Shown: piece after piece, positions 3,868 through 8,372 of the stretch | Numbering within the stretch: position 1 is the first letter of the stretch | Layout: every line of letters begins with the position of its first letter | NCBI GenBank assembly: GCA_020725805.1 | Contig: DYEF01000064.1 | Coordinates: forward strand, 1 to 9,723 | Length of the DNA stretch: 9,723 bases | DNA from: Bdellovibrio sp. | GTDB lineage: Bacteria; Myxococcota; SpSt-1050 | Direction: 5' to 3' | The notes under the pieces: model-generated | The model's input: only the letters and a program-made list of their open reading frames with translations | The model's database searches: none | What the model was told of the DNA's origin: nothing | Made by a program: the position numbers and the translations under genes

Positions 3868-4623
3868 CTAAATCTCCCATTTTATCTCAGGCTCGTAAAT
3901 TACTCTTCTGAGTATCAGGCCGCAGGCAGGTACTGTCTCGAATGCATTTTTTCTCTCCCCGCTTTCGGCAATCTGTTTAACCTGTCCGATGTCGATATCC
4001 GTGCGTCCGAGTCTTAAAAGAGTCCCCATTATTATCCTTATCATATTCTTGTAAAATGCCCGCCCCCTGAATGTGAAGATGTAGAATGATGGTTCTGTCT
4101 CGGCAACCGAGATCTCCACTTCCCTAACTTCGCCCTTGCATTCGTTGTCCGATGCCTTGAATGCGGAGAAATCCCTGAGGTTGTTGAAGAAGGCGATACC
4201 GCTCTGAATCTTTTCGAAATCGAGAGCAAAATGATAGTGATATACGGTGTCTGCAAAAAGAGATGGTCTCCCTTTTCTTGTGAGCAGTCTGTATTCGTAA
4301 ATCTTTGTCTTTGCAGAGAATCTCGGATGAAAACTTTCGTCAACAGGCGCGACCGAGATTACGGAGATATCCTTCGGGAGTACGCCGTTTAGCGACAACA
4401 GGAATCTTTTTGTGTCAGGTATCTCATCGGATTCGAAGGATGCCACCTGTCCGGTTGCGTGAACTCCGGCATCTGTGCGGCCTGCTGCCGAAATCCTTAT
4501 ATCCTTTCTGAAGATAATTCTTAGTGAGCGTTCTATCTCGCCCTGTACTGTCCTTTTCTGAGGCTGAACCTGCCATCCAGAGAAGAATTTTCCGTGATAT
4601 TCAATGAGCAGGGCATATCTCAT
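3868..4623 (-). CDS. truA: tRNA pseudouridine(38-40) synthase TruA
   Basis: TruA converts uridines 38, 39 and 40 in the anticodon stem of many tRNAs to pseudouridine, working as a cytoplasmic homodimer. The 251-residue length is normal. The N-terminal RYALLIEYHGKFFSGWQ block is characteristic, and the catalytic Asp51 lies in GRTDAGVHATGQVASF. Later conserved blocks are FHPRFSAKTKIYEYRL, the FSAFKASDNE region and FYKNMIRIIMGTLLRLG. The ATG lies eight bases after the stop of the exported fusion gene and has no clear ribosome binding site, suggesting coupling to that gene. The 3' end abuts the next gene's TTG start. Nothing unusual is seen in the active-site blocks. Confidence 0.96.
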   Translation of the reverse strand: MRYALLIEYHGKFFSGWQVQPQKRTVQGEIERSLRIIFRKDIRISAAGRTDAGVHATGQVASFESDEIPDTKRFLLSLNGVLPKDISVISVAPVDESFHPRFSAKTKIYEYRLLTRKGRPSLFADTVYHYHFALDFEKIQSGIAFFNNLRDFSAFKASDNECKGEVREVEISVAETEPSFYIFTFRGRAFYKNMIRIIMGTLLRLGRTDIDIGQVKQIAESGERKNAFETVPACGLILRRVIYEPEIKWEI

Positions 4624-4631
4624 GATCTGAA

Positions 4632-6416
4632 TCAGATATCGAGGTAGAGACCGAAGAAGAGACCGGTATTCGACAGGTCGAAGCCGCTGCTGCCGAAACC
4701 GTCTATTATTGCTCTGTAAAATTCGACGAATATGTACGAGTTGTTAACCCCGAATTCCATATCAAAGTCCGCTGCCGTCTCTCTGTCGATCCAGTCCAGA
4801 AGGAACATCAGACCGCCGGCATAGTGATAACCGGTCTTTCCGCCGTATCCCTCGAATGTCTTGTTTTCGGAATTCTGGTACCTCGAGATGTCTCCCCTCG
4901 CATCCGTTATCCAGTAGATGTAATAATCCAGCCCGCCCTTGACATAGGGCACGAGTGGGATACTGGCATTGACGGCATAATAATCGAATCTGTAAATGAG
5001 GTTGAGTTCGAGCGGAATGATATTGAAGACGGTCGTGTCCTGACTCTTCTCCGATGTACTTCCCTGATAGTTGTAAATGCCCTTCCCCAAAACCTGCCAG
5101 AAACCTGCCATTGTGCCCGCAGAGAACGTCCCGAATCTCTGGAAGAGTTCATAGTCGAGTCCGAGTTTGAACATAAATTCGCTTTTGTTGTTGAATATCT
5201 CCTTATACGGTTTTGCCGACAGACCTTCCTCCTCGTCTATTTTCGAAGGTTTGTAATCTCCCGCGTTGATAGAGATACCAAAGGTCCTTTCGGATTCTGC
5301 CTTAACAGAGAGGGGTAAAAGGGCGAATATCAGAAAAAGAGGGAGAATCAATCCGGTCCTCTTTCTTCTAATGATGACAGCAGTCAGTACAGACACAAGA
5401 ACCAGAGCCAGCAGGAGTGATGGTTTCAGTGTCAGATATAAAACGATTGCAAGCGGGGTGAGCAGCATTGCAGAAAAGAATCTGAGCACGGGTCTCTCTC
5501 TGATGAAGTCTGCCGCAGGCGGCGATAATCTGTAGTAGAGAGAGATAATCTTCTGGCCTGTCTCCGAGTTTTTCAGATATGTATCCCTGAATGCCTTGAA
5601 CACATAGACAATCGGGTGAACGGGAGAGCCGTATACGGCAGTTGCGATGAAGCAGAATCCTCCCTCTTCCTTGCCTCCGCTGTTCTTATAGTATTCGTAG
5701 TAATCAAAGACCTCCCGGGGAGTGCCGGTAAATACGGCAGATTTATCCGATACATTTTTTGCCTTGTCGATCTGCTCTGCCCAGATATCATAAGTGATGT
5801 TGTTTACAAGTCCTGTAATTTTGTGGCTGGTTGTGCGCACGTTTTTACTTACGGATGGTTCGTCACTCGTCCCGCTCTTGCGCCAGTAGATATTGAAGCC
5901 ATATTTGTCTGATTCCGAGGAATTTGCTCCCCAGCTGAGATATACGATCAGACTGTTCTCTCCGGGGACGACAGAGCTTACGGACGGTACCGGAGGAGGG
6001 GTGCGGTCAAAGTGAACTATTATTGCCTTGATGTTCTCCTGAAATTTCGGGGAGGAACTGCCTGCGTCTTCGGATTCCTGTGCCTCGATGAGTATGTACA
6101 ACTCCTTTTCTCCGTCGTCTTTATTATTTGCGTGTGCCAGAATATCGGAGGCATATACTGTATAGGCCGCATCTCCGCCGTTGTATGAACCACTGGCGAT
6201 CTGATTCGCTGAACTTTTGGATGAGGAGTCGACATTTATGTAATATGTTGCATTTGTAACACTGCTGGTCCACCTCAGGGTTATCGCCTTGTTGTTTTCA
6301 ATGTCGGTCGCATTGAAGTAGGAGTCATCCTCCGAAAGGTCGTAGACGGTTACCTTGAATGCAAACAGATTCAGTGGCAGGGTAATCAAAAAGATGAGGA
6401 AAAATATTCTTTTCAT
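4632..6416 (-). CDS. Exported fusion: FN3-like domain, CFI-box tail, and MXAN_2562-like outer-membrane barrel
   Basis: A 594-residue envelope protein. The ATG at 6416 is chosen because AAAGGAGA lies five bases upstream and a signal peptide follows (residues 1-19, cut near NLFA). Order: a beta-rich N-domain (20-140); an FN3-like domain (about 141-234, with VYLSW, GFNIYW and TYDIWAEQ); a CFI-box segment starting at Cys255 (FCFIATAVYGSP, then YYRLSPPAADFI); a hydrophobic stretch (313-349) ending in RRKR (350-353); a second signal-like helix (356-373, ending SVKA); and a barrel-like C-terminus (374-594) with alternating hydrophobic strands, IPLVPYVKGGL, GVNNSYIFVEF and a final FFGLYLDI. The barrel resembles the myxobacterial MXAN_2562 family, and the CFI box usually ends a protein; both points are from memory. 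It looks like two adjacent genes fused. If the second helix is cut by signal peptidase, an anchored FN3 part and a free barrel would result. Function is unknown. Its ribosome binding site overlaps the asd stop. Confidence 0.82.
   Translation of the reverse strand: MKRIFFLIFLITLPLNLFAFKVTVYDLSEDDSYFNATDIENNKAITLRWTSSVTNATYYINVDSSSKSSANQIASGSYNGGDAAYTVYASDILAHANNKDDGEKELYILIEAQESEDAGSSSPKFQENIKAIIVHFDRTPPPVPSVSSVVPGENSLIVYLSWGANSSESDKYGFNIYWRKSGTSDEPSVSKNVRTTSHKITGLVNNITYDIWAEQIDKAKNVSDKSAVFTGTPREVFDYYEYYKNSGGKEEGGFCFIATAVYGSPVHPIVYVFKAFRDTYLKNSETGQKIISLYYRLSPPAADFIRERPVLRFFSAMLLTPLAIVLYLTLKPSLLLALVLVSVLTAVIIRRKRTGLILPLFLIFALLPLSVKAESERTFGISINAGDYKPSKIDEEEGLSAKPYKEIFNNKSEFMFKLGLDYELFQRFGTFSAGTMAGFWQVLGKGIYNYQGSTSEKSQDTTVFNIIPLELNLIYRFDYYAVNASIPLVPYVKGGLDYYIYWITDARGDISRYQNSENKTFEGYGGKTGYHYAGGLMFLLDWIDRETAADFDMEFGVNNSYIFVEFYRAIIDGFGSSGFDLSNTGLFFGLYLDI
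5298..5351 (-). other. Internal signal-peptide-like segment within the fusion protein
   Basis: Residues 350-353 (RRKR) are followed by a roughly 18-residue hydrophobic segment, LILPLFLIFALLPLSVKA, then the acidic-polar ESE. This has the n-, h- and c-region layout of a Sec signal peptide with a V-x-A cleavage site, placed exactly before the barrel domain. The first codon of the segment is TTG at 5351, in frame, preceded by AAGAGG at a spacing of six, so an internal start is possible. Whether this is an internal cleavage site, a second membrane span or a restart point is not settled by sequence alone. Confidence 0.5.
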
Positions 6417-6420
6417 ATTA

Positions 6421-6428
6421 TCTCCTTT
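6421..6428 (-). promoter_or_regulatory. Strong ribosome binding site deciding the fusion-protein start
   Basis: On the minus strand AAAGGAGA ends four bases before the ATG at 6416 and overlaps the TAA stop of asd. It decides for the 594-residue form over a frame that is open 17 codons further upstream inside asd, and it implies translational coupling between asd and the exported protein. Confidence 0.75.
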
Positions 6429-7437
6429 ACAGCATATCTTTGAGAATTTCTGCGATCTCGACTGCATTTGTGGCCGCCCCGCGTCTGATATTGTCGGCCA
6501 CGATAAACATCGACAGCCCGTTTTCGAAGATAAGTGGCTCTCTTATTCTTCCAACAAAGACCTCGTCTCTTCCTGCCGCAAGTATTGGCATCGGATATTT
6601 CTTCTCTTTCGGGTCATCCACAACAACGACCATCTGTGCCTTGCTCAGTATCTTAATTGCCTCTTCGCGGTCTATCGGTCTTTCTGTCTCGATAAGGACG
6701 CTCTCCGAATGTCCGTGCATAACCGGTACACGGACTGTAGTAGGGGCGACCTTTATACCGGATTCCATAATTTTCTGGGTCTCGAAGACCATCTTCATCT
6801 CTTCCTTTGTGTAGTTGTTCTCCTGAAAGACATCTATATGAGGGATACAGTTGAACGCGATGTGATACGGGAAATGCTGTGGCGGAATCTTTTCGTTTTT
6901 ATAGTATGCATTGGTCTCCCTGTTGAGGGCGTCAACCGCCTTCTGCCCGGCACCGGAGACTGCCTGATATGTTGATACAACAATTCTCTTGATAGGATTG
7001 ACTTTGTGAATCGGGTTGAGGGCAACTACCATCTGAATTGTAGAACAGTTGGGGTTTGCAATAATTCCGCGGTTTTTATAATCCTTTATCCTGTGCGCAT
7101 TTACCTGAGGGACAACGAGCGGGATATCCGGCTCCATTCTCCACGCACTCGAGTTGTCTATGACAATACAACCCTCCGAGGCGCTTACGGGTGCAAATTC
7201 CCTGCTTACCGTCCCGCCGGCAGAGAAGAGGGCTATATCGAATCCTTTGAACATCCCCTTTTTGAGTTCTTCAACTGTGATATCCTCGCCGCCAAACCTT
7301 ATCTTTTGTCCGGCAGACCTCGAGGATGCCAGAAATCTGATTCTCTTTACCGGAAATTTCTTCTCTTCGAGAACTCTGATAAAAGTCCTGCCCACGAGCC
7401 CGGTCGCTCCGGCAATCACAATATTGTATTCCTTCAT
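6427..7437 (-). CDS. asd: Aspartate-semialdehyde dehydrogenase
   Basis: Asd reduces L-aspartyl-4-phosphate to L-aspartate-4-semialdehyde with NADPH in the cytoplasm, the branch point to lysine, diaminopimelate (peptidoglycan), threonine and methionine. The 336-residue product starts MKEYNIVIAG with the Rossmann loop GATGLVG at 10-16. The catalytic cysteine is Cys131 in NPNCSTIQ, the conserved STYQAVSGAG block (155-164) carries the active-site Gln, and RVPVMHGHSE (236-245) carries the catalytic His243. This matches the Bacillus-type Asd subfamily in length and motifs. The ATG at 7437 is chosen because GAGGAG (7445-7450) lies seven bases upstream; the frame is open 33 codons further, but that extension lacks family similarity and overlaps the upstream gene. 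A candidate promoter lies in the 59-base gap before it. Its stop overlaps the ribosome binding site of the next gene. No defect is seen. Confidence 0.96.
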   Translation of the reverse strand: MKEYNIVIAGATGLVGRTFIRVLEEKKFPVKRIRFLASSRSAGQKIRFGGEDITVEELKKGMFKGFDIALFSAGGTVSREFAPVSASEGCIVIDNSSAWRMEPDIPLVVPQVNAHRIKDYKNRGIIANPNCSTIQMVVALNPIHKVNPIKRIVVSTYQAVSGAGQKAVDALNRETNAYYKNEKIPPQHFPYHIAFNCIPHIDVFQENNYTKEEMKMVFETQKIMESGIKVAPTTVRVPVMHGHSESVLIETERPIDREEAIKILSKAQMVVVVDDPKEKKYPMPILAAGRDEVFVGRIREPLIFENGLSMFIVADNIRRGAATNAVEIAEILKDML

Positions 7438-7444
7438 ATAATAT

Positions 7445-7450
7445 CTCCTC
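7445..7450 (-). promoter_or_regulatory. asd: Ribosome binding site deciding the asd start
   Basis: GAGGAG on the minus strand, seven bases before the ATG at 7437, selects this start over in-frame upstream codons and places the Rossmann GATGLVG loop at the expected distance from the N-terminus. Confidence 0.75.
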
Positions 7451-7464
7451 TCAGAATCCGTTGT

Positions 7465-7492
7465 ATAATACCACAAGTTTTGAAAATGTGAA
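7465..7492 (-). promoter_or_regulatory. Candidate sigma-70 promoter for asd
   Basis: On the minus strand TTCACA (7487-7492, five of six to TTGACA) is followed after 16 bases by TATTAT (7465-7470, five of six to TATAAT). TG stands one base before the -10, an extended -10 element. It sits in the short gap between the acyltransferase stop and asd, so asd and the genes downstream could be transcribed apart from the upstream genes. Confidence 0.45.
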
Positions 7493-7496
7493 GAAA

Positions 7497-8372
7497 TTAG
7501 CAGGAGAATTTCCAGCGGTCGTGAATCCATATCCACTCGTGCGGGAATCTTATTATCTCTTCGGATAGCATATTGTTGACCCTTTCGAGTATCTCTGCCT
7601 CACCCTCATCGCAGGAATAACAGACTCTCTTCACTTCCGTGTGTATTTTTCCGTTTATACGGTGATTGTAACCGACTACAAGGGCGGCGCCGGTCTCCTT
7701 CAGGATTCTGGCAGGGAAGACCGGTGTCGGGGCGTCGAATCCCATAAATTTTACCATAACGGAAGGGACATTCGTATTCTGGTCTATGAGAAATCCCATA
7801 ACGGCATTCGAAGAGATGACATTGCGTATTTTTCCGGTTATTCCTTCCTCTTTTCTGAATATACACTTCACGCCGTTTTTCTCTCTCTTCTCCCTGATTA
7901 TTCCTGTAAATCTCGGGTCATAACTCTCCTTTGCAACTGTGTAGATATTGTATCCTGCCTTTGCAAGAGAGACAGCCATCAGTTCCCAGTTGCCCAGATG
8001 TGCGGTCAGAAATACTATCCCCTTTTTTTCAGACAGAGCTTCGTCGAGAATTCCTTTCGAATCCTTACCGATTGATGCAAATTCGTTTACGTCCTTATTT
8101 CTGAATATTACTGCTATCAGCTCCGAGACTGATATTGCCCAGTGAAGGTACATATCCCTGAGTATCCTTTTTGATTTCTTTTTGTCGTAGAAGACAGAGA
8201 GATTTTTGTATGCAGTCCTGTTTTCCCTTGTCGGGAGGAACGAAGCAAAGAGGGCTATTGCATAAAGAATATATTTTGTCAGCGGAGCGGGAATGTGGAC
8301 GAGTACAAAAAGCAGTATTTTTACGAATATATAAATCAGGTCGTTTTTTATTTTCTTTATAATCCTTCTCAT
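7497..8372 (-). CDS. LpxL/HtrB-family lysophospholipid or lipid A acyltransferase
   Basis: This 291-residue inner-membrane protein belongs to the LpxL/HtrB (lauroyl acyltransferase) family, which adds secondary acyl chains to lipid A in Gram-negatives; the mycobacterial relative PatA acylates phosphatidylinositol mannosides. An N-terminal membrane anchor covers about residues 11-29, with a second hydrophobic stretch at about 34-46. The catalytic HX4E motif is HLGNWE with His125 and Glu130 in VFLTAHLGNWELMA. Further family blocks are GFLIDQN followed by VKFMGFDAPTP, and the C-terminal FPHEWIWIHDRWK. Length is near the family norm of about 300. The ATG at 8372 has only a weak purine tract upstream, but no better start is seen. 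A candidate promoter lies upstream in the 123-base gap. The acceptor could be lipid A or a glycolipid made by the plus-strand genes; sequence does not decide. Confidence 0.88.
   Translation of the reverse strand: MRRIIKKIKNDLIYIFVKILLFVLVHIPAPLTKYILYAIALFASFLPTRENRTAYKNLSVFYDKKKSKRILRDMYLHWAISVSELIAVIFRNKDVNEFASIGKDSKGILDEALSEKKGIVFLTAHLGNWELMAVSLAKAGYNIYTVAKESYDPRFTGIIREKREKNGVKCIFRKEEGITGKIRNVISSNAVMGFLIDQNTNVPSVMVKFMGFDAPTPVFPARILKETGAALVVGYNHRINGKIHTEVKRVCYSCDEGEAEILERVNNMLSEEIIRFPHEWIWIHDRWKFSC

Follow-up and report, generated by a model that had tools for sequence, protein, structure and literature searches.

What becomes of a presumed C-terminal sorting tail when an outer-membrane barrel follows it in the same open reading frame? 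This question is raised by a 9,723-nt contig of Bdellovibrio sp. (DYEF01000064.1), which in its full length is referred to here as the window. ORF and profile scans of the window identify the gene P0001 (4632..6416, minus strand), encoding a 594-aa precursor that joins an MXAN_2561-type protein, a CFI-box tail and an MXAN_2562-type barrel.

Fused gene and genomic context

The 594-aa frame of P0001 is open from 6416 to 4635 on the minus strand, with the stop codon at 4632-4634. The start at 6416 is preceded by the Shine-Dalgarno sequence AAGGAG (TGTAAAGGAGATAATATG). Profiles, hydropathy and structure prediction bear out the layout proposed in a sequence-only reading of this DNA: a signal peptide, an FN3-like domain, a CFI-box from Cys255, a hydrophobic stretch with RRKR, a second signal-like helix and a barrel. 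The domain order of the precursor is a signal peptide, two β-sandwich domains, the CFI-box, a transmembrane helix, RRKR, signal peptide 2 and an eight-stranded barrel. The single stopless frame through the junction, also described in that reading, is likewise open in many other families and at locus L062, from another genome of the genus, where the fused protein is 71% identical over 594 aa.

The gene is spaced by 10 nt from asd (aspartate-semialdehyde dehydrogenase; 6427..7536, minus strand, as listed in the ORF list) and by 8 nt from truA (tRNA pseudouridine synthase; 3868..4623, minus strand). The true start of asd probably lies further in than that of the listed ORF. The ORF list and a neighbor survey show asd as the 5' neighbor of the fusion in many families and truA as the 3' neighbor in several. 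Among the surveyed loci L062 to L141, these two housekeeping genes stand beside the envelope pair in many families and form an old conserved neighborhood; only presence and strand of the neighbors are used here, since stop-to-stop frames overlap and make upstream and downstream labels unreliable. The window has no match in a plasmid collection, and a plasmid origin has therefore been dropped.

N-terminal half

Signal peptide 1 comprises residues 1-19 (6360..6416, minus strand), with LNLFA/FK as the site predicted by inspection and hydropathy. It is followed by the N-terminal half proper (residues 20-254; 5655..6359, minus strand), in which profiles and the model recognize two β-sandwich domains, the second of them FN3-like, and which ends in YKNSGGKEEGGF. 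The full-length AlphaFold2 model places the two sandwiches at residues 22-136 and 145-231. Profile and fold searches with this half return FN3 domains, and Pfam fn3 matches residues 151-215 with an E value of 6e-4, under the gathering threshold. The family model MXAN_2561_fam (NF045522) matches residues 7-255 with an E value of 1.7e-24 and 86.9 bits, under the equivalog cut-off of 150. Judged by this match, the N-terminal half is a distant homologue of MXAN_2561 and not a family member by NCBI's rule. It lies directly 5' of the 2562-type barrel, in the window within the same ORF. A Pfam scan of P0001 lists neither a PA14 nor an OmpA domain.

CFI-box tail

The CFI-box (residues 255-322; 5451..5654, minus strand) is defined by profile, alignment and model. 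It is helical in the model and begins with Cys255 (5652-5654), which stands where relatives have the cysteine of MYXO-CTERM. The model CFI_box_CTERM (NF041770) matches residues 255-322 with an E value of 9.6e-23 and 79.8 bits, above the cut-off of 40. The box lies inside the 594-aa precursor, so it lacks the C-terminal position that belongs to the definition of CFI-box-CTERM; a cut at A373 would make it near-terminal. The end of the tail is formed by a transmembrane helix (331-349) and RRKR (350-353), located at 5358..5426 on the minus strand and expected from hydropathy and linker analysis to provide a cytoplasmic loop. Hydropathy shows hydrophobic segments on both sides of R350-R353, at 331-349 and 354-373. 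The number of membrane passes is uncertain because the segment 309-330 is hydrophobic too.

Orthologous N-terminal halves typically finish with Y...GG.x.GG and then a cysteine. Among them, the CFI cysteine is offset by +1 in 16 of 18 sequences and the MYXO cysteine by -2 to +2 in 55 of 62. Split CFI genes mostly terminate with the CFI-box, a helix and a basic cluster. This indicates that a full CFI tail has every element of a tripartite sorting signal, the box being interposed between the cysteine and the helix. The box leaves about 55 to 75 residues between Cys255 and the next helix, whereas the MYXO-CTERM cysteine adjoins its helix, and this unlike spacing means that myxosortase may not act on the CFI tail. 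P0001 departs from the MYXO-CTERM model in the same respect: its cysteine, helix and basic cluster are all there, but separated by some 70 residues. A scan of the whole window genome (G000) with the MYXO-CTERM model (TIGR03901) gives no match at E<=10.

The proposal that the CFI-box is a C-terminal sorting tail is borne out in part. The cysteine slot shared with MYXO-CTERM argues for it; against it, the box is also found at the end of proteins that show no evident signal peptide. The box by itself does not make up the tail of P0001, which is completed by the separate transmembrane helix and basic cluster. The CFI-box is present in single copy in most genomes. C-terminal boxes on proteins without an evident signal peptide are found at five loci, Myxococcus-type genomes included. 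These proteins of ∼350 to 400 aa carry Cys-pair (zinc-ribbon-like) motifs besides the terminal box; for the one at L149, Pfam gives no match.

Joint and internal signal peptide

Hydropathy, linkers and the model delimit an internal signal peptide 2 at residues 354-373 (5298..5357, minus strand), with a predicted signal peptidase I site at VKA373/ES. Ala373, at the -1 position, is conserved in at least 90% of 26 aligned fused proteins. In the full-length model, residues 353-375 fall below a pLDDT of 50, meaning flexible and of low confidence. A home-made signal peptide test was applied to 55 linkers (36 from survey fusions and 19 from further loci) and to shuffled linkers of the same composition. 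The succession of helix, net basic stretch, h-region and AxA is found in 53 of the 55 fused linkers, compared to 6.6 expected from the shuffles.

Identity to the same-genus protein is 81% in the N-terminal half and 74% in the barrel and falls to 37 to 38% in the helix with its basic residues and in signal peptide 2. The segments of the joint are therefore kept in type and not in sequence. Synonymous sites are saturated in this gene pair, which deprives dN/dS at the joint of information. Only 2 of 36 fusions have, close to signal peptide 2, an internal start whose Shine-Dalgarno match reaches 5/6 or better; one of these is the window's TTG with an SD-like sequence at residue 356. This scarcity rejects internal translation start as a general rule for the barrel and indicates that translation normally yields the barrel only within the long chain. 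Apart from this one SD-like TTG, P0001 has the makeup of a polyprotein, with an internal signal peptide, a predicted peptidase site and no separate start.

Outer-membrane barrel

The mature barrel, residues 374-594 (4635..5297, minus strand), is an eight-stranded outer-membrane barrel of the MXAN_2562 family according to profile and AlphaFold2. MXAN_2562_fam (NF040596) matches residues 380-593 with an E value of 1.1e-58 and 198.4 bits, and since the curated cut-off of 100 is passed, the likeness to this family noted from the sequence can be upheld. The barrel-like nature of the C-terminal domain is likewise upheld by a confident prediction for residues 374-594, with eight long strands, a pLDDT of 93.3 and a pTM of 0.86, as a fold prediction only. 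The closest folds are OmpA (Z 16.1; 164 residues, 3.5 A) and NspA (Z 15.8). The first strand begins about 5 residues past the predicted cleavage site. The barrel (4635-5297) also resembles the Bd0486 family barrel of Bdellovibrio (NF053801) with an E value of 3e-15, far under the cut-off.

Distribution and evolution of the fusion

Both families are near-universal in the phylum: 180 of 195 genomes carry the barrel, and 183 of 193 the MXAN_2561 family. Linkage was classified with profiles built for this analysis at 80 mostly MAG-based loci plus the window. The N-terminal half lies directly 5' of the barrel at 80 of these 81 loci, fused at 36 and adjacent at 44, which agrees with the earlier suggestion that two cooperating genes have been joined. 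The fused frame occurs in 16 of the 27 surveyed families of the phylum; six families show it with a CFI-box and ten with a short Cys-helix-Arg joint of the MYXO type. Of the 44 split pairs, 34 have a barrel start that shares 4 nt with the stop of the upstream gene, and 40 have it between -7 and +5 nt (own count). A GGFCF motif scan of named genomes returns 53 loci, with 33 fused, 16 split and 4 incomplete (33 of 49 classifiable); Myxococcota MAGs are among their sources. The two surveys are not independent, as L062 and L160 are one contig and further survey loci recur among L160 to L178.

Several single loci deserve mention. At L105 (G134), asd abuts the barrel with no N-terminal half between them, and the best MXAN_2561 match is on another contig, making this the only unlinked pair seen. 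L071/L174 is the sole split member in an otherwise fused family and has no clear barrel start, which could reflect either a lesion of the frame in this MAG or a genuine overlap of 47 nt. In genome G019 the CFI type occurs twice, fused at L073 and as a split pair overlapping by GTGA at L154. CFI fusions are also found at L177, L180 and L182 to L210, which come from UBP6, from mostly rumen MAGs labelled Spirochaetales or simply bacterium, and from Sumerlaeota-labelled bins. The Mrt-like protease of these genomes is mostly about 213 to 234 aa long and under the Mrt_core cut-off.

On a phylogeny computed from the two halves together (80 rows, 434 columns), fused and split states require at least 9 changes, or 8 without L071 with its possible frame lesion; these counts carry no direction and stand for either fusion or fission. 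Between CFI and MYXO tails at least 3 changes are needed, and a careful tree search gives equal counts. Counting strongly supported branches only, no fewer than 4 changes are needed for split-MYXO and fused-MYXO. A single clade of the CFI-bearing rows is rejected (AU p 0.002).

Myxosortase and secretin

The window genome encodes a homologue of Mrt_core with 117.9 bits (cut-off 100), whose nearest full-length model is MrtP, although under the cut-off of MrtP itself. This myxosortase-family protease is located at L146:4714-5370, in a genome with no MYXO-CTERM protein detected by TIGR03901. Of 20 genomes in which CFI fusions or pairs occur, 19 contain a homologue of Mrt_core, 6 of these over the cut-off. 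Mrt-like CPBP proteases are common, with matches below the cut-off in 5 of 14 control genomes. The secretin GspD is found over the cut-off in 12 of 12 genomes, including G000.

Proposed processing and alternative explanations

A polyprotein that is cut into two envelope proteins is, on this evidence, a highly probable reading of P0001. In the proposed sequence of events, signal peptide 1 would take the MXAN_2561-type half to the periplasm, the tail helix would stop transfer, and RRKR would remain cytoplasmic. Signal peptide 2 would then initiate export of the barrel, signal peptidase I would cut after Ala373, and the eight-stranded barrel would be inserted in the outer membrane through BAM. 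Signal peptidase I cleavage is the most likely event in view of the geometry of an uncut chain: with the first strand only about 5 residues past the site, a barrel still tethered to a helix of the inner membrane would have little chance of getting to the outer one.

The N-terminal half would be held by its tail of CFI-box, helix and basic residues until the tail is processed, most plausibly near Cys255 and by the myxosortase-family protease of G000. The presence of a myxosortase-core protease and of a type II secretin makes processing of the tail plausible; the specific site near Cys255 falls somewhat short of being probable. Once processed, this half would meet the barrel at the outer membrane or on the cell surface and pair with it as TraA does with TraB, and the mature products would be those made by relatives from two overlapping genes. 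Taken together, the polyprotein with the tail and partnership steps is the reading we favor, and it is reasonably likely as a whole. More speculatively, and with the balance leaning against it, the CFI-box with its helix may represent another surface-sorting tail of the cysteine type, one that is exchangeable for MYXO-CTERM and is handled by a myxosortase-family protease, with P0001 as its sole recognizable client in G000. In the same tentative proposal, the tail and the internal signal peptide may form a removable hairpin by which a surface protein is repeatedly joined to a barrel as a polyprotein.

The one open frame, recurrent across families, would also fit a chain that stays whole, with the N-terminal half as a permanent part of the barrel protein, anchored in the outer membrane by the barrel. 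Such anchoring, suggested in the sequence-only reading, is very unlikely: the intact signal peptide with AxA is kept between the halves in 53 of 55 fusions, an uncut chain would put two inner-membrane helices beside an outer-membrane barrel, and split relatives produce two proteins. The same reading considered that the barrel exports its partner, and an autotransporter- or Slam-like function could account for the strict gene adjacency. The OmpA/NspA-type fold is unlike known protein exporters, and to our knowledge eight-stranded barrels of this type are not the architecture of any of them. Barrel-driven export is highly improbable: a protein of two folded domains has no obvious passage through such a barrel, a helix and a signal peptide intervene between the halves, and the genome has a type II secretin for surface export. 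A stop lost or a frameshift introduced in assembly has a nearly negligible probability and is rejected, since independent genomes share the fused frame. MAG frame errors are possible, as the split L071/L174 within a fused family illustrates, but the same frame recurs in the congeneric genome and across 16 families, and hardly any internal start is left in the fusions.

The strongest competitor agrees with the favored polyprotein in that signal peptidase frees the N-terminal half, but leaves this half in the inner membrane, held there by CFI-box and helix without sorting and working with or without the barrel. The helical CFI-box of the model, the occurrence of the box on proteins without an evident signal peptide and the lack of a TIGR03901 match in G000 even at E 10 are consistent with this. 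It is nevertheless unlikely. Across orthologous proteins, the CFI cysteine stands where MYXO-CTERM has its own, and the two tails swap at least 3 times on a tree in which the CFI rows are not one clade. Moreover, G000 retains a myxosortase-core protease though no MYXO-CTERM client is detected, and anchoring in the inner membrane would separate the N-terminal half from the barrel.

Comparison with known systems

A bacterial precedent for two proteins arising from one chain by a cut at an internal signal sequence is the cytochrome b/c1 polyprotein FbcH of Bradyrhizobium. Unlike the window fusion, FbcH consists of inner-membrane cytochromes and has neither a sorting tail nor an outer-membrane barrel. 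Searches of a paper collection for fbcH and for internal signal peptides in bacterial polyproteins yielded no usable paper, one on Slam and TraB brought nothing further, and none of the papers in that collection names MXAN_2561, MXAN_2562 or the CFI-box.

The closest counterpart is the MXAN_2561/MXAN_2562 pair of myxobacteria, with the same order and domains and often the same neighbor, asd. Myxococcus-type genomes have two genes and MYXO-CTERM, in contrast to the one gene and CFI-box tail of the window. The recurrent joining of these near-universal genes is strong genetic evidence that they act as a pair.

MXAN_5598 of Myxococcus xanthus contains an internal MYXO-CTERM followed by an outer-membrane barrel and has been proposed to be a fusion with a processed and surface-anchored N-terminal part, likened to joined TraA and TraB (PMC11980579). 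It is a large adhesin with MYXO-CTERM and a barrel with OmpA cell-wall-binding domains, whereas the window protein has a CFI-box. An internal signal peptide, predicted for the window fusion, is not described for MXAN_5598 in the passage of PMC11980579 consulted. The MXAN_2561/2562-type pair is far more widespread than MXAN_5598, and CFI-box and MYXO tails exchange in the former. These fusions offer a natural test of sorting tails acting inside a chain, as proposed for MXAN_5598, and of the CFI-box, an annotated domain with no function assigned to it, as a sorting tail handled by myxosortase.

The split pairs resemble TraA-TraB in combining a cysteine-tailed surface protein with an envelope partner and in the 4-base overlap, as the traA and traB ORFs of M. 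xanthus overlap by four bases (PMC3325183); both TraA and TraB are needed for one function (PMC3325183, PMC11980579). TraA and TraB contain PA14, a cysteine-rich repeat and an OmpA domain, none of which is found in the window protein, and there is no sign of outer membrane exchange. By analogy, the window gene would work like TraAB and MXAN_5598 while belonging to neither.
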